A DNA stretch of 64,000 nucleotides, taken from assembly GCA_902622875.1 (NCBI GenBank), contig CACNRW010000003.1:1-64000 (forward strand), written 5' to 3'. Under the pieces are notes generated by a model. The model worked only from the letters and a program-made list of their open reading frames with translations, was not told where the DNA came from and did no database searches. The stretch is from an uncultured SAR116 cluster alpha proteobacterium. GTDB lineage: Bacteria > Pseudomonadota > Alphaproteobacteria > Puniceispirillales > Marisalimonadaceae. The position numbers were made by a program, and so were the translations under genes. Below, piece by piece: positions 1 through 27,353 of the stretch (position 1 is the stretch's first letter; each line of letters begins with the position of its first letter).

Positions 1-92
1 TTTATCATTGACGGACTCACTGTATTTGCTAAGCTATTGATATTATTGGAGTTTAGATAAAACCATTGCTCTGGTTAGGCATCACACCTCAT

Positions 93-148
93 CTCGAGCG
101 CACCAAAAACATCCGTGAACCATGGTTAAGTGTCTGACTTCCTTGAAT
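93..148 (+). repeat. Left 56-bp inverted repeat (att-like, carries tRNA-Arg 3' end)
   Basis: Reverse complement of 1343-1398 with one mismatch. It begins with the 13-base tRNA-Arg 3' end including CCA, followed by 43 bases of downstream sequence. It contains the 10-bp perfect palindrome AACCATGGTT, which could be a recombinase core site. The first 92 bases of the window to its left show no gene. Confidence 0.85.
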
Positions 149-175
149 GACGTTTCACGGACCACTGACCTTTAG

Positions 176-1309
176 TTAAATCTTATTCATCCAATCATAT
201 TTAACTTCTAACGTATATCCAGATCCATAAGATTGGCCTACAGTTTTTGTTGACCAACCTCCAATCGCATCAACAATATCAGAAGGACATTGGACGGCTC
301 TAAGTCTATCTCTTAAGCTATGTCTAAAAGAATGAATTACGCAATCATCTGGTATTCTTGGCTTCAGCCATTTGTTAAGTCCATTACTGGCTGAGTTAGC
401 ATTGCACTTTTCATCGTTTGCGTACCTTGGGAAAGCAAATTGGTTGTTATCACTTATGATTTTTTTTGCTGCCCATAGAGATGCTCCTACAAGAGGAATA
501 GTTCTATTACTCCCTTTCGTCTTAAGTCGTCTCCATGGGTGATTGATAATATTTACATGAGGTATTTCTGTACTTAATATTATATCACTTGTGAGTAAAC
601 CAACTGCTTCTGATAAACGCATGCCAGTGTCACTAATTAAGGCAATTAACCACCTGTTGTCATCGTTTAAGTTTTTACATTCAGTTTGAATATCTCTTAT
701 ATTTTGAATTGGAATAGGGAGTCTAATCTTTTTCTTATTATCGTCTGGAATGAATGTCCCTGAAAATGGATTTTTCATATTAATACCAAATTCATTTACA
801 GTGATGTTGATCACTGCGTTGATAGACGAAAATATACGTTTAACAGAAGAAGTGGATAATCCTTTTTTAAATAAGAAATCTCTGTACCTTGCAGCATCAA
901 TAGACTTTAAGGAGGTGATATCTACGTCACCAAAGCATTCTATTGTATAAGATATATTTCTTAAAGCAGTTCGATGAAAAAGCTCACCTTTACCATTACC
1001 TTTTAACTTGATGTAAGTGTCTAATGCTTTACTTAGTTTTACTGTTTCTGTTTTTGATTTTTGGTTATCAAGAAAACTAAGTTTTAATTCTTTGGTGTGG
1101 AACAATTCTAATCTTAGTGTGTTCCAATAAGTTTCAAGACGATCAGTTAATTTATTAGCAGATTCTATAGCTTTTTGTTTTGACGATGTTCTTAGAGAAA
1201 TTACAACTCTATTCTTATTAAATTTTGTTTTTAAGTCTGATGGCACCTGTCTTGTAAAGTAATAAATACCATTTCTTTGATATAAATAATGTGGTGATCT
1301 TGTATACAT
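176..1309 (-). CDS. Tyrosine recombinase / phage-type integrase
   Basis: A 377-aa site-specific tyrosine recombinase that would catalyse integration, excision or inversion between att sites. The N-terminal ~60 residues (YYFTRQVP, then an RTSSKQKA stretch) resemble the small DNA-binding domain common in proteobacterial integrases. Residues ~100-180 form a SAM-like core-binding domain. The catalytic domain shows Arg231 in GMRLSEA, His326-x-x-Arg329 in HSFRH, Trp352 and a Tyr at 361 (or 365), so it looks intact and active. The gene lies alone between 56-bp inverted repeats beside tRNA-Arg, consistent with tRNA-targeted integration. No excisionase gene is visible in the window. Confidence 0.9.
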   Translation of the reverse strand: MYTRSPHYLYQRNGIYYFTRQVPSDLKTKFNKNRVVISLRTSSKQKAIESANKLTDRLETYWNTLRLELFHTKELKLSFLDNQKSKTETVKLSKALDTYIKLKGNGKGELFHRTALRNISYTIECFGDVDITSLKSIDAARYRDFLFKKGLSTSSVKRIFSSINAVINITVNEFGINMKNPFSGTFIPDDNKKKIRLPIPIQNIRDIQTECKNLNDDNRWLIALISDTGMRLSEAVGLLTSDIILSTEIPHVNIINHPWRRLKTKGSNRTIPLVGASLWAAKKIISDNNQFAFPRYANDEKCNANSASNGLNKWLKPRIPDDCVIHSFRHSLRDRLRAVQCPSDIVDAIGGWSTKTVGQSYGSGYTLEVKYDWMNKI

Positions 1310-1342
1310 CCTTGTCTACAGCCTCCGAGCTCCTAAAAATTA

Positions 1343-1398
1343 ATTCAAGGAATTCAGACACTTAACCATGGTTCACGGATGTTTTTGGTGCGCTCGAG
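1343..1398 (-). repeat. Right 56-bp inverted repeat overlapping the tRNA-Arg 3' end
   Basis: Mate of 93-148. Bases 1386-1398 are the 3' end of the intact tRNA-Arg gene (minus strand); the other 43 bases lie just downstream of the tRNA, between it and the integrase start. This is the normal position of an integrase attachment site in a tRNA gene. Confidence 0.85.
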
Positions 1399-1462
1399 AG
1401 GATTCGAACCCCTGACCCCTAGATTCGTAGTCTAGTGCTCTATCCTGCTGAGCTACGAGCGC
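1386..1462 (-). tRNA. tRNA-Arg (anticodon ACG)
   Basis: The 77-nt cloverleaf reads cleanly on the minus strand: a perfect 7-bp acceptor stem (GCGCTCG / CGAGCGC), a GCTC/GAGC D stem, a CTAGA/TCTAG anticodon stem with loop CTACGAA (anticodon ACG), a T arm with TTCGAAT, and encoded CCA. The ACG anticodon implies A34 to inosine editing by TadA to read CGN codons. The 3' end is shared with the 56-bp repeat of the neighbouring integrase element, and the tRNA stays intact. Confidence 0.97.
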
Positions 1463-1745: not shown

Positions 1746-3524
1746 ATGTCTGAAAGTGACACTAATTTACCTTCTAAATCTAAGCTAAAAAAATTGTTAT
1801 CACTCTATCAAGAATCAAAATTTGATGAGGCTTTAAATTTATCAAAATCTATTACTAATCAATTTCCAAATCATCAATTTAGTTGGAAAGTTTTAGGTGC
1901 AGTATATCATCAAAAAGGAAATTTAAAAAAAGCAATATCCGCTAACCAAAAAGCGGTTATTATTAATCCACAAGATCCAGATGCGCATAACAACTTGGGA
2001 GTTGGATTACAAGAAATTGGTAGTTTTAAAAAAGCAGAACTAAGTTTTAGAGAGGCTTTATTTTTGAAACCTGATTATTCTGAAGCTTATACAAACTTGG
2101 GCGTAGTTCTTCAAAAGTTAGGTAAATTTGATGAGGCAGAAAAGCATCATAGAAAAGCAATTTTTTTTAGCCCTAAAAATGTATCTGCTTATATAAATTT
2201 GGGCGTGACTTTAAAGGAATTATACAGATTTGAAGAAGCGGTAGAAAATTATAACATAGCTATAAAGATAAATCCAAATTCTTCAACAGCCTACACAAAT
2301 AAAAACTTTTGCTTAAACTACTCTGCAAACTTTTCTCCAACTTTTATTTACCAACAACATCTTGAATTTGGTAAACAATTTGGAAATAAACAAAACAATA
2401 ATCTCTTTCCTTTAAATAAAAGCATTATTTCTAGAGAAAAATTACGTATTGGCTACGTATCTGGTGATTTTAGACAACATTCAGTGGCATATTTCTTCGA
2501 ACCCCTTTTGAATTATCATGATACTAATATGTTTGAAACATTTTGCTACTATAACAATAATATATTCGACAACTATACTGATATAATAAAAAATAAGACT
2601 AATAATTGGCGTAATATATTTTCTCTCTCAGATGTTGACGTTTCAAAGATTATTAAAAATGATAATATAGATATTCTAATTGATTTATCAGGACACACGG
2701 GACAGAATAGATTAAAATTATTTGCCCTAAAGCCGGCACCTATTCAAATTACTTGGTTAGGATACCCAAATACGACTGGTTTGTCAGAAATTGACTATCG
2801 TTTTACTGACGTAATTGCTGATCCAATTGGTATAACGGATAAATTTCATACTGAGAAACTTTATAGGCTACCATCCGGTTTTCTTTGCTATAAGGGAAAT
2901 AACTCGATTTCCTTGCCGAATGATATTCCTCAAATTGAAAATAGATTTGTGACTTATGGTAGTTTTAACAATTTTTTAAAAGTTACACCTGAGGTAATAA
3001 AAGTGTGGTCAAAGATACTTAAATCTTCACCAACATCTCGATTGATTTTAAAAGGTTCTGATATTAATCAAAATGCATCGCAACAAATTGAAACTTTTGC
3101 AAAAGAGGGTATTTCCGAAGATCGTTTATCAATTTATCAAAGTTTACCAAAAATTAGTGAGCACCTAGATTTATATAACTCTGTTGACATTGCTTTAGAC
3201 ACCTTCCCATATAATGGTGTTACTACAACATGTGAAGCTTTATGGATGGGAGTACCAGTTATTACACTACTAGGTAAACAACATGCTAGCCGCGTTGGTG
3301 CGAGTATTCTGACCAATGTTGGACTTGAGGACTTTATCGCAAATGATATTGATGGTTATATCGAAATGGCTTCTACATTTGCAAAAGAAATAGATTTACT
3401 CGAAAAAATGAGAAAAGAACTTAGAAAGAAAATGCTGAAATCTTCATTATGTAATGGTTCAATATTTGCTAAAGAAATAGAAAGAGCCTATAAAGAAATA
3501 TGGTCTAAACACCTAAATAGTTAA
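1746..3524 (+). CDS. TPR-repeat protein with OGT/SPINDLY-type glycosyltransferase domain (GT41)
   Basis: 592 aa. The N-terminal ~200 residues are tandem tetratricopeptide repeats (NNLGVGLQEIG, TNLGVVLQKLGKF, INLGVTLKEL). From about residue 230 the protein matches the O-GlcNAc transferase catalytic region: IGYVSGDFRQHSV, ILIDLSGHTGQNRL, QITWLGYPNTTG, and GVTTTCEALWMGVPVITL near the nucleotide-sugar pocket. Such enzymes transfer a sugar from a UDP-sugar to Ser/Thr of proteins; bacterial members are poorly characterised. No signal peptide is seen, so it is probably cytosolic. It has an AGGAG ribosome-binding site and appears to be transcribed alone. The family is clear; target proteins and donor sugar are unknown. 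Confidence 0.9.
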   Translation: MSESDTNLPSKSKLKKLLSLYQESKFDEALNLSKSITNQFPNHQFSWKVLGAVYHQKGNLKKAISANQKAVIINPQDPDAHNNLGVGLQEIGSFKKAELSFREALFLKPDYSEAYTNLGVVLQKLGKFDEAEKHHRKAIFFSPKNVSAYINLGVTLKELYRFEEAVENYNIAIKINPNSSTAYTNKNFCLNYSANFSPTFIYQQHLEFGKQFGNKQNNNLFPLNKSIISREKLRIGYVSGDFRQHSVAYFFEPLLNYHDTNMFETFCYYNNNIFDNYTDIIKNKTNNWRNIFSLSDVDVSKIIKNDNIDILIDLSGHTGQNRLKLFALKPAPIQITWLGYPNTTGLSEIDYRFTDVIADPIGITDKFHTEKLYRLPSGFLCYKGNNSISLPNDIPQIENRFVTYGSFNNFLKVTPEVIKVWSKILKSSPTSRLILKGSDINQNASQQIETFAKEGISEDRLSIYQSLPKISEHLDLYNSVDIALDTFPYNGVTTTCEALWMGVPVITLLGKQHASRVGASILTNVGLEDFIANDIDGYIEMASTFAKEIDLLEKMRKELRKKMLKSSLCNGSIFAKEIERAYKEIWSKHLNS

Positions 3525-14165: not shown

Positions 14166-15212
14166 ATGGATTTCAAATATTTAATAATATTTATTATAAT
14201 TCTTATTACACTTTCAATTATAATTTTTTTTATATGTAAAACTTATTTTCAAAATAAAAAAAACGTTGATGATCAAACTATTTCCCCTAAAGATGAAATG
14301 AGACAAATATCTGAATTGAAAGGGGCAGTCTCTCAATTAAGCAGTACTATAGAAGAAAGATTAGGAAATTTTGGATCGACAATTGGTAATAGCTTAACCC
14401 AGCAAACACAAAATACACAAAAATCTTTGATGGAAATGCACGAAAGACTAGCCGTAATTGACAGAGCTCAAGAGAATATAAATTCTTTATCTAACCAAGT
14501 TAATGATTTGCAGAATATATTATCAAATAAACAATTAAGAGGTGCATTCGGTGAGGTTCAACTTGAAAATATAGTCAAAGATGCACTCCCACAAAACTCT
14601 TACCAATTCCAATATACGCTCATGTCAAATACTAGAGTTGACTGTATAGTTAAAATGCCAGAACCTCCTGGCCCTATTTGTATTGACTCTAAATTTCCAT
14701 TAGAAGATTATAAAAAATTTACCGGCTCTACAAACGACCAAGAAAAAAAAGATAATTTAAAGTTTTTTCACAATGCAGTTCAAAAACATATAAGGGATAT
14801 TTCTGAAAAATATATATTACCTGGTGAAACCGCAGATTCAGCTATTATGTTTTTACCAAGTGAATCTATTTATTCTGAAATAAATATTAGATTTCCTAAA
14901 TTAGTAAACGAAAGTAGAAATAAAAAAGTATATATGGCTGGTCCTGATAATTTAATGCTTCTTCTCCACACTGTTAGGGCAATTTTAAGAGACGCTACTA
15001 TGAGTCAAACAGCTGGAAAAATACAAGTTGAAGTTGATAAATTAGGTAATGATTTAAACTTATTGGCTGATAGAATATTTAAGTTAGATAAACATTTTGA
15101 CTTAGCAAGAAGAGATTTGGATGAAATAAAAATTTCACATAGGAAAATTGAAAATAGAGGGAACGTAATTACTTCAATCGATGTAAATGAAAAAAAGCAA
15201 TTAAGTGATTAA
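14166..15212 (+). CDS. rmuC: DNA recombination protein RmuC homolog
   Basis: 348 aa with an N-terminal TM segment (residues 4-24), a coiled-coil region (~45-130) and the RmuC domain, including GAFGEVQLENIVKD, CIDSKFPLEDYKKF, and AIMFLPSESIYSEI. RmuC limits inversions at short repeats; the domain is related to nuclease folds. A GGAG ribosome-binding site precedes the ATG. It is divergent from def and convergent with recR with a 1-bp gap. Confidence 0.92.
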   Translation: MDFKYLIIFIIILITLSIIIFFICKTYFQNKKNVDDQTISPKDEMRQISELKGAVSQLSSTIEERLGNFGSTIGNSLTQQTQNTQKSLMEMHERLAVIDRAQENINSLSNQVNDLQNILSNKQLRGAFGEVQLENIVKDALPQNSYQFQYTLMSNTRVDCIVKMPEPPGPICIDSKFPLEDYKKFTGSTNDQEKKDNLKFFHNAVQKHIRDISEKYILPGETADSAIMFLPSESIYSEINIRFPKLVNESRNKKVYMAGPDNLMLLLHTVRAILRDATMSQTAGKIQVEVDKLGNDLNLLADRIFKLDKHFDLARRDLDEIKISHRKIENRGNVITSIDVNEKKQLSD

Positions 15213-15213
15213 A

Positions 15214-15807
15214 TTATAATAGGTTTCTAGCTTTTAAAGCTTGTGCAATTGTTCCATCATCAAGAAAGTCCAATTCTCCTCCAACAGGTAAACCATGAGC
15301 GAGTCTTGTTATTTTTATATCTAATTTACCTAATCTTTCTGCAAGATAATGAGCTGTAGTTTGTCCATCAAGTGTAGCTGATATAGCAATAATTACTTCT
15401 GTAAACTTTTTACTCTCAAGTCTTTTTTCTAAAGAATCTATATTTAATTGATTAGGATTAATGCCATCTATAGCCGACAAAACTCCGCCTAGAATATGAT
15501 ATTTTCCATTATAAACGTTAGATCTTTCTAAAGCCCACAAATCTGCAACAGTTTCAACAACGCATAATAGTGTTTCATTTCTAGATGAATTTTTGCATAT
15601 TTGACAAATATCATTTTCATCTAAATTACCACATTCAACGCATTTTTTAATATTATTTGCAACATTATTCATATCTTCTATGAGAGGAAGAAGTAAAGTT
15701 TCTTTATCTTTAAGTAAATGTAGAACTACCCTTCTAGATGATCTAGGTCCTAAGCCAGGAAGCTTGGCTACTTTTTTTATTAATTTTTCAAGGACTTGTT
15801 CTGACAT
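15214..15807 (-). CDS. recR: Recombination protein RecR
   Basis: 197-aa zinc protein of the RecFOR pathway that helps load RecA on gapped DNA. It has LPGLGPRSSRRVVLHLL (helix-hairpin-helix), a C4 zinc finger (CVECGNLDENDICQIC), and a Toprim domain (LLCVVETVADLWALE to LPVGGELDFLD). It lies 21 bp downstream of dnaX. The small ybaB/ebfC gene that usually sits between dnaX and recR is not there. Confidence 0.96.
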   Translation of the reverse strand: MSEQVLEKLIKKVAKLPGLGPRSSRRVVLHLLKDKETLLLPLIEDMNNVANNIKKCVECGNLDENDICQICKNSSRNETLLCVVETVADLWALERSNVYNGKYHILGGVLSAIDGINPNQLNIDSLEKRLESKKFTEVIIAISATLDGQTTAHYLAERLGKLDIKITRLAHGLPVGGELDFLDDGTIAQALKARNLL

Positions 15808-25280: not shown

Positions 25281-26255
25281 AAATTCATTTTTAATTGGTC
25301 TTGATAATAGTTTTTTTATTATCTCATCTACATTAGCCTCTTTATTTAGTATTTTTTTAATAGAGCTCATTATAGGTAGCTCCAAGTCTAGTTTTTCAGA
25401 CAATGCAATAGTAGCATTTATTGCGTTTAAACCTTCTACAAGTTCTTTTGGCGGCTCATTGTAATTTGTTACAATTTTCATTCCATATGCCATATTTCTT
25501 GAATGTGGACCGCTGCATGTTAAAGACATATCTCCTATACCTGCTAGACCAAAGGCAGAACTATAATTTCCCCCTGCCTTTTTAATTAATTCGGATGTTT
25601 CAGAAATGCCTCTTGTAATTAGAGCAGCTTTTGCGTTATCACCTAATCTTAAACCTTCAATAATACCGGCCCCAATTGCAATTATATTTTTAACGGCTCC
25701 TGCAATTGACACTCCTTGTGGATCATTACTAGGATATAATCTAAGATTTGAATTATGAAATAATTCACAAATTGAGTTAGCTTGTTCAATAACCTTATTT
25801 GCAATGACAGCTGCAGCAGGTTGATTATTAGCTATCTCATCAGCAAAGGTTGGTCCTGTTAATATAGACAAGTTCATATTTGGAAAATCACTTTCAACAA
25901 CTTCACTAAACGTTTCTCCTGTGTTAGTCGCAAAACCTTTTGATGTTATAACAACGTGAATATTTTCATCTGATAAAAAAGCAATCTGACTAATTGCATC
26001 TAATACCCTTTTACTTTCTGTTGTAATAAAAATTAAATCACATGTTTTGATTATTTGATTTTTATCTATCGATGCTTTTATTAGAGGGCTTAACTTAGCT
26101 TGTGGAAATCTTTTTGATACATGATTATTAATATCTACTTCCCGGATTTTGTCAGAAACTATCAGTGTTGATTTGTTTCCAAGGGAAGCGAGTGTAATAG
26201 CTAAAGCTTGTCCCCATGCCCCACCGCCATAAAAACATATATTTGAATAAGACAT
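25275..26255 (-). CDS. gpsA: Glycerol-3-phosphate dehydrogenase [NAD(P)+]
   Basis: 326 aa. It makes sn-glycerol 3-phosphate from dihydroxyacetone phosphate for phospholipid synthesis. The N-terminal nucleotide-binding motif is slightly unusual: FYGGGAWGQALAITLA. Other motifs: LTGPTFADEIA, GAVKNIIAIGAGI (catalytic Lys), and GLAGIGDMSLTC. It starts directly after tsaD, a conserved alphaproteobacterial pair. The last codons fall in the AATT repeat. Confidence 0.95.
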   Translation of the reverse strand: MSYSNICFYGGGAWGQALAITLASLGNKSTLIVSDKIREVDINNHVSKRFPQAKLSPLIKASIDKNQIIKTCDLIFITTESKRVLDAISQIAFLSDENIHVVITSKGFATNTGETFSEVVESDFPNMNLSILTGPTFADEIANNQPAAAVIANKVIEQANSICELFHNSNLRLYPSNDPQGVSIAGAVKNIIAIGAGIIEGLRLGDNAKAALITRGISETSELIKKAGGNYSSAFGLAGIGDMSLTCSGPHSRNMAYGMKIVTNYNEPPKELVEGLNAINATIALSEKLDLELPIMSSIKKILNKEANVDEIIKKLLSRPIKNEFN

Positions 26256-27353
26256 TTAAGCTTTAACTCCACTTTTACCTATTTTCGATTGTAATGGATT
26301 TACGTAATGTGCCTGTGGATCTAATGGCCACCTTGGTCTGGGTTTGAAATCTAAGTTAGTTTCACCCTCATGATTATACTTTTCATAGCCAGCCCAAGCA
26401 ATCATAGCTCCATTATCGGTACATAAATCAAAAGGTGGTGCAAAAAATATTGCGTTTGCTTCTAAAGACAGTCTTTTTAATTCCTGACGTATGTATAAGT
26501 TGGAAGCAACACCGCCAGCTACAACTAATTGAACATTAGACTTATTATTAATCATTTTTGTAAACTCGCTTATTGCAAATTTAGTTCGATCTACAAGACA
26601 GTCAGATATTGATTTTTGTAAGCTCGCACATAAATTTCTTATTACAGTTTTACTAAGTTTATTACTTGAAACAGATTGATTGAAAGCAGTTTTCAATCCA
26701 GAAAATGAAAAATTAGGATTTTTCGACTTATACATTGGTTTAGGTAAATCAAAGCTCTTAGGATCTCCATCAATTGCCATTTTCTCTATTATAGGCCCCC
26801 CTGGAAATCCTATGTCTAGTATCTTTGCTGCTTTATCAAAAGTTTCTCCTGCAGCATCATCAAGTGTAGAACTTATTCTAACATATTTTCCATATTCTAA
26901 TACCGCTATTATTTGTGTATGTCCTCCAGAAACTAAAAGCAATAGAAATGGATATTTTATATTATTGGTTAAACGTGCAGTTAGAGCATGCCCTTCAAGA
27001 TGGTTAACAGCAACATATGGCCTGTCTAGAGACATTGCTAAAGATTTAGCAAATACAGTTCCTACAATTACTCCTCCAATTAGGCCAGGACCTCCTGTCG
27101 CAGTAATTAAATCTATATCATTTAATTCCAACTTTGCTTCATCCAAAGCTGCTTGAAATGCATAATCTATATTCGATAAATGATCTCTAGCAGCAACTTC
27201 AGGAACAACTCCACCATATTTATTTAGATTTGAATTTTGATTAATCACTATATTAGACAAGATATTTTTTTCAGAAGTCACTATCCCAATAGCCGTATCA
27301 TCACAACTTGTTTCAACACCTAAAATATTTTTATAATTACTCTTTTTCATCAT
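26256..27353 (-). CDS. tsaD: tRNA N6-adenosine threonylcarbamoyltransferase TsaD
   Basis: 365-aa Kae1/TsaD-family ATPase that, with TsaB and TsaE, installs t6A37 on ANN-decoding tRNAs. Motifs: LGVETSCDDTAIGIV, the iron-binding HLEGH (His118, His122), LVSGGHTQI, GETFDKAAKILD and VAGGVASN. Length is slightly over 340, with a short C-terminal extension. It is adjacent to gpsA (1 bp apart) and divergent from hemC. Confidence 0.96.
   Translation of the reverse strand: MMKKSNYKNILGVETSCDDTAIGIVTSEKNILSNIVINQNSNLNKYGGVVPEVAARDHLSNIDYAFQAALDEAKLELNDIDLITATGGPGLIGGVIVGTVFAKSLAMSLDRPYVAVNHLEGHALTARLTNNIKYPFLLLLVSGGHTQIIAVLEYGKYVRISSTLDDAAGETFDKAAKILDIGFPGGPIIEKMAIDGDPKSFDLPKPMYKSKNPNFSFSGLKTAFNQSVSSNKLSKTVIRNLCASLQKSISDCLVDRTKFAISEFTKMINNKSNVQLVVAGGVASNLYIRQELKRLSLEANAIFFAPPFDLCTDNGAMIAWAGYEKYNHEGETNLDFKPRPRWPLDPQAHYVNPLQSKIGKSGVKA

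Follow-up and report, generated by a model that had tools for sequence, protein, structure and literature searches.

A large part of the flexible genes in marine bacteria resides on tRNA-targeting islands. In P4-type and other islands of this kind, as well as in phage satellites (classification in PMC8138268), the gene of an arm-binding tyrosine integrase lies at the 3' end of a tRNA gene that is restored upon insertion, and outer direct cores, arm-type sites, cargo and, sometimes, AlpA and a primase-helicase complete the element. The locus described here shares these features, but differs in that the whole attachment region is repeated in inverted orientation behind the integrase; therefore, three cores are present in the integrated state, and an excised circle would bear a pair of att sites where a single one is usual. 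It also resembles the tycheposons of marine bacteria, which, as summarised in PMC10872708, are cargo islands bordered by a tRNA gene, with a tyrosine recombinase, in streamlined hosts. Both the tRNA border and the tyrosine recombinase are present here; the likeness concerns described features and not recombinase lineage, and mirrored attachment sites are not mentioned in that paper.

The geometry of the locus matches that of the yeast 2-micron plasmid with its 599-bp inverted repeats and Flp recombinase (PMC6594588): in both, a tyrosine recombinase gene is accompanied by two head-to-head sites within long identical inverted repeats that halve the circle, the circle being deduced here from the integrated order. 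However, the 2-micron plasmid is a free eukaryotic plasmid that does not integrate into tRNA genes, Flp uses simple FRT sites without the arm sites predicted here, and amplification, shown for the 2-micron plasmid, is only conceivable here. Finally, an integrase adjoining a recombination site, variable gene content and, in some genomes, repeats between cargo modules are reminiscent of integrons; yet the recombinase belongs to another family (DUF6538 and Phage_integrase), the targets are tRNA genes, arm sites occur, the cargo repeats lack a core, and the locus does not fit an integron with an IntI-type integrase and attI/attC cassettes.

The window, that is, the whole stretch of DNA analysed, comprises the first 64 kb of contig C3 from the 76-contig genome of an uncultured SAR116 cluster alphaproteobacterium, and its base 1 is the first base of C3. 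The nearest public relatives of this genome are SAR116 single-cell genomes. The features of the locus are the following:

1386-1462, minus strand: tRNA-Arg (ACG), the target gene (ARAGORN)
1386-1398, minus strand: P1 core (tRNA-side site), CTCGAGCGCACCA, the last 13 bases of the tRNA (exact core search)
1322-1385, minus strand: LE, the arm from the core to the integrase start; 1343-1385 is common to the inner copy
1299-1321, minus strand: predicted arm-type pair CTGTAGACAAGGATGTATACAAG, overlapping the integrase start codon (match in RE of relatives)
176-1309, minus strand: tyrosine integrase, DUF6538 and Phage_integrase, 377 aa
106-148, plus strand: LE', the counterpart of LE in inverted orientation after the integrase stop, with one mismatch
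93-105, plus strand: P2 core (inner inverted site), CTCGAGCGCACCA
1-92, plus strand: RE', the beginning of the cargo-side arm, truncated where the contig ends; contig C5 carries its inverted partner

The initial annotation had described 56-bp inverted repeats around a single integrase gene, and this description holds: the reverse complement of 93-148 is found, with a single mismatch, at 1343-1398, both copies being embedded in a longer pair (89-155 and 1336-1402) of 93% identity, and the intact integrase gene is the only one between the arms. By simple counting, we estimate the chance of such an inverted pair in 3 kb at about 1e-25, which is negligible. It was likewise correct that the left copy holds just 13 bases of the tRNA: the core is the only tRNA portion present there, and its exact matches in the genome number three, two in the window in opposite orientations and one on contig C5. 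The integrase matches DUF6538 and Phage_integrase in Pfam (PF00589, E=7.6e-14) and has the catalytic domain and the R, H-x-x-R and Y residues of phage-type tyrosine recombinases, Arg231, His330, Arg333, Trp352 and Tyr361 each being retained in 60 or 61 of the 61 family members. A second DUF6538 integrase of the same genome (G000:C9:28582-29694) is disrupted by two stop codons. In related genomes, the tRNA-Arg (ACG) loci L067-L095 have at least four different element ends behind the same tRNA gene, namely that of the window's element, ATTCTTTCTTTTTAATATC, TCATTTTTTATAACTCATTG and CAATTTGG, and this gene is therefore an integration hotspot.

Judged from the sequence, positions 93-1398 are the tRNA-side end of a larger element, whose cargo runs past the contig end. 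The suggestion of a minimal element thus has to be dropped, as the window holds just one end of a longer island. Window bases 1-108 recur at 98% identity on C5 (C5:4351-4458), and C5:1-4458 terminates in cargo-RE-core. The flank of C5 is found directly behind tRNA-Arg in the related genome G001, by a similarity of 39 bp at 87% that may belong to another element. Because of this ending and this flank, C3 and C5 most likely represent opposite ends of a single element, a link that is drawn by homology across contigs. C5 also carries a third, direct copy of the core (C5:4443-4455). Such a copy beyond the window had been anticipated as the mark of a conventional island; the copy exists, but the conservation of the inverted copy throughout the family sets the island apart from the conventional type. 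In L049, L059, L060 and L149, a single contig holds the direct core repeats of the two ends, one of which completes the tRNA, and for the window's element they are distributed over C3 and C5. The conventional pattern of a single attP, with one att site and no inverted copy, is seen neither in the window nor in 71 of 85 scorable relatives, and a conventional island with a chance inverted copy was ruled out because the arrangement recurs and its copies evolve in concert.

In the closest relatives, the single-cell genomes L044, L046 and L047 (96-98% identical over the region), the left arm runs on into a conserved RE block, followed by cargo that differs among the genomes. L046 contains a second RE (L046:15181-15795) in the same orientation as the first, which is unexpected under our model; it is preceded by inverted remnants of another copy of the same element and of a second element type.

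An inverted RE and a third, direct core at the far end, both predicted beforehand, were found in complete genomes and long contigs. In L049, RE (3208-3498) recurs inverted at 14954-15244 with 99.7% identity, and a direct core copy lies at 15217-15244; an inverted RE copy was also identified in L050, L051, L052, L054, L056, L057, L058, L059, L060, L063 and L127. The arrangement is seen most clearly in the finished megaplasmid of Ruegeria sp. TM1040 (NC_008043.1, L149), where the target is tRNA-Phe and the element spans L149:13914-26683, corresponding to about 586101-598870 of the megaplasmid. Here, the arms around the integrase gene are 85 bp long and 100% identical, RE of 1148 bp is present with 100% identity at both cargo ends (L149:15240-16387 and 25536-26683), and the third direct core is present. 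Each RE copy contains an identical BRO-family gene, duplicated because it lies inside the inverted RE arms, and a type I restriction-modification system is part of the cargo enclosed by the two copies. The long identical inverted repeats of these elements range from about 200 to 1200 bp. L051 is an entire element of 3.2 kb with approximately 1 kb of cargo, whereas L054 and L127 each contain two elements in tandem, meeting at a core. The integrated order is tRNA-core-LE-int-LE'-core'-RE'-cargo-RE-core-flank, an architecture conserved in the family. The predicted attachment region RE-core-LE is carried twice, head-to-head, separating the integrase from the cargo.

Within the order, 67 of 121 genomes encode at least one DUF6538 integrase of the family. 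Among 289 genomes sampled across the class, nine contained a family integrase (four of them belonging to this order), and the family also occurs in several alphaproteobacterial groups outside the order. Inverted arms were found in 71 of the 94 distinct integrase copies considered; nine copies could not be scored, as their sequences end too soon, and 14 lacked arms of at least 30 bp. Five of these 14 carry direct repeats. L051 falls into this group of 14, since nothing but the 18-bp core is common to its LE arms, although the two copies of its RE are identical and in inverted orientation. A second batch, 20 loci retrieved once the model had been formed, yielded 12 with arms, seven without and one that could not be decided; inverted arms are therefore common, not universal. 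Since arms are absent from 14 of the 85 scorable copies (7 of 19 in the second batch), the inner site is not essential to the family.

Copies with inverted arms are spread over the integrase tree, rooted at the midpoint, including members outside the order. Four neighbouring copies at tRNA-Gly (L126, L144, L169 and L174) have none, which suggests a secondary loss under this midpoint root. Three of them, L126, L169 and L174, have ordinary direct tRNA repeats and no inverted copy, fit the conventional type, and lend themselves to comparison as to what the second site does. A phage origin was considered and rejected: a scan of viral contigs gave no relatives, and phage records gave two partial matches only, at 32% identity.

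The arms are more similar within an element (median 98.9%) than to the nearest other element (82.3%), the within-element identity being higher in 45 of 53 cases (Wilcoxon p=2.6e-8), with the difference somewhat inflated by the choice of arms as matching segments. In the window's own subfamily no such excess is seen, because its elements are near-identical to each other. These comparisons indicate that the arms are homogenised within elements, the two copies evolving together.

Several parts of the element look like an arm-type attP, and arm sites are predicted as follows. A tandem repeat, e.g., GGTAGACCAAATGGTAGACC, contains or adjoins the integrase start codon, and in most elements a family-specific pair matching the one at the integrase start is situated in RE, approximately 89-117 bp from the core. 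For the window's pair, CTGTAGACAAGGATGTATACAAG, the match in the relatives L046, L047 and L061 is 91-115 bp from the core, and C5 carries a copy as well. The cognate pairing of integrase-start and RE pairs performs better than shuffled pairing (permutation p<=1e-4). The inner copy P2 usually stops within or before the arm-type pair, which in the window's subfamily is wholly absent from P2.

A 115-bp part of RE, containing neither core nor arm sites, recurs as direct repeats between cargo modules and elsewhere in some SAR116 genomes (L150 at 1907, 6179, 12397, 14781 and 16538; L151 at 424 and 6508; L047 at 7890 and 10276; C5:4188-4304). An integron-like cassette array, which this recurrence brought to mind, was rejected, as the units have no core and no arm sites.

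Our preferred reading, to which we assign a probability of about 60%, is that of an integrative element that targets tRNA genes and has twin att sites in inverted orientation, where recombination on the circle would invert one half and keep the copies identical. The integrase would be an arm-binding tyrosine recombinase that recombines the complete P1 site, composed of RE arm sites, core and LE arm sites next to its own start codon, with the tRNA gene. Excision would proceed by recombination of the outer direct cores, and the excised circle would carry two inverted att sites, with the integrase in one half and the cargo in the other. If these sites recombined, one half would be inverted against the other, keeping the copies nearly identical, and co-resident elements could swap integrase and cargo halves through them. 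The integrase probably starts at the tRNA because only P1 integrates efficiently, P2 usually lacking the distal arm site.

The twin-site reading agrees with the disagreement between RE and integrase identities: RE is 82-88% identical between elements whose integrases share only 54-66% identity, although RE stretches may be constrained. In addition, the P2 copies of L140 and L029 come from, or are chimeric with, other LE families. On the other hand, with an orientation bias of 71:1, chromosomes seldom show an inverted integrase half. The benefit of the twin sites may consist in amplification of the 2-micron kind, in the exchange of halves, or in the use of LE' as a promoter.

The first of these is a stronger form of the main explanation, in which one half of the circle is inverted during replication, so that the forks chase each other and many copies arise per origin firing. 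We consider it possible but unlikely as the purpose of the twin sites. The recombinase gene with two head-to-head sites inside long identical inverted repeats has the appropriate geometry, and some elements carry replication genes (Prim-Pol, AAA_25 helicase and AlpA, or an AEP/DUF5906 primase-helicase). Furthermore, the Prim-Pol/helicase module has opposite orientations in the cargo of two elements: in L057 it reads inward from the integrase-side RE, in L060 from the far one. However, an obvious replication gene is missing from most elements, the helicase type occurs in only 5 of the 121 genomes of the order, and L051 has about 1 kb of cargo. With replication genes in some elements and the helicase type rare, amplification is therefore no more than a possibility. 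The orientation of the replication module was also considered as a test of cargo inversion and abandoned, as only two elements are informative.

In many elements, an opposite-strand variable gene behind the integrase starts at LE' in the same way as the integrase starts at LE (L050, L052, L064, L116, L119, L124, L127, L141 and L146), as if the attachment arm were a shared leader or promoter. LE' could then be a regulatory leader, serving as a promoter copy for the gene behind the integrase or, where no such gene is left, as an antisense promoter, with ordinary gene conversion homogenising the arms. This explanation seems rather doubtful to us, as it accounts for neither the duplication nor the identity of core and RE, and in some elements LE' abuts the integrase stop with no gene there.

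The inverted arms would also permit a chromosomal integrase cassette to flip as an on/off switch between a tRNA-proximal and a reversed state. The initial annotation had pointed to inverted att-like copies flanking the integrase, recombination of which would invert it and leave the tRNA intact, and the geometry agrees with this. A simple invertible cassette is, however, disfavoured: the start codon faces the tRNA in 71 of the 72 integrases beside a tRNA gene, so that free flipping is not supported, and the window covers no more than one end of a longer element. The single exception is L062, whose integrase is reversed between core copies. Such a switch is accordingly improbable.

In CTX phage and integron cassettes, the att site is recombined by one-strand exchange, and the choice of strand is set by unpaired bases. 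By analogy, the inverted copies could anneal in a single-stranded circle to form a double-stranded att site for a one-strand exchange. The near-perfect complementarity of RE-core-LE to its inverted copy would allow this, and such insertion followed by replication would yield the integrated order. Nevertheless, the part of the cargo checked revealed neither a relaxase gene nor a rolling-circle gene, and perfect duplexes offer no unpaired bases for strand choice, which makes this route very improbable.

An assembly fold-back or amplification (MDA) chimera, a concern that had been raised for the left repeat and that could be prompted by the single-cell origin of the close relatives and by the position of window base 1 at a contig end, has practically no probability and is excluded for the family, as the identical tRNA-arm-int-arm structure recurs in independent assemblies (L044, L046, L047) and finished genomes, including the TM1040 megaplasmid, the two arms are not identical and diverge gradually, and the contigs of L043 and L045 end just behind the integrase, at the arm, as a real inverted repeat would cause, because assemblers stop at inverted repeats.

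No description of mirrored attachment sites around an integrase, or of DUF6538, was found in the literature consulted, which mostly did not include subscription papers and is weak evidence; apparently, this kind of element is widespread but undescribed. Since the inverted arms lie behind the integrase, short-read assemblies often break there. In most members of the integrase lineage, a mirrored copy of the attachment site is retained with near-perfect identity. It is conceivable, though unlikely, that these elements are a bacterial counterpart of the 2-micron plasmid, that is, integrating elements that would amplify the excised circle by means of the integrase and the mirrored att sites before reintegrating or spreading. 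The architecture predicts inversion isomers, circle amplification, and exchange of integrase and cargo halves, and Ruegeria sp. TM1040, a named bacterium with a finished genome, provides a complete copy in which these predictions are testable.
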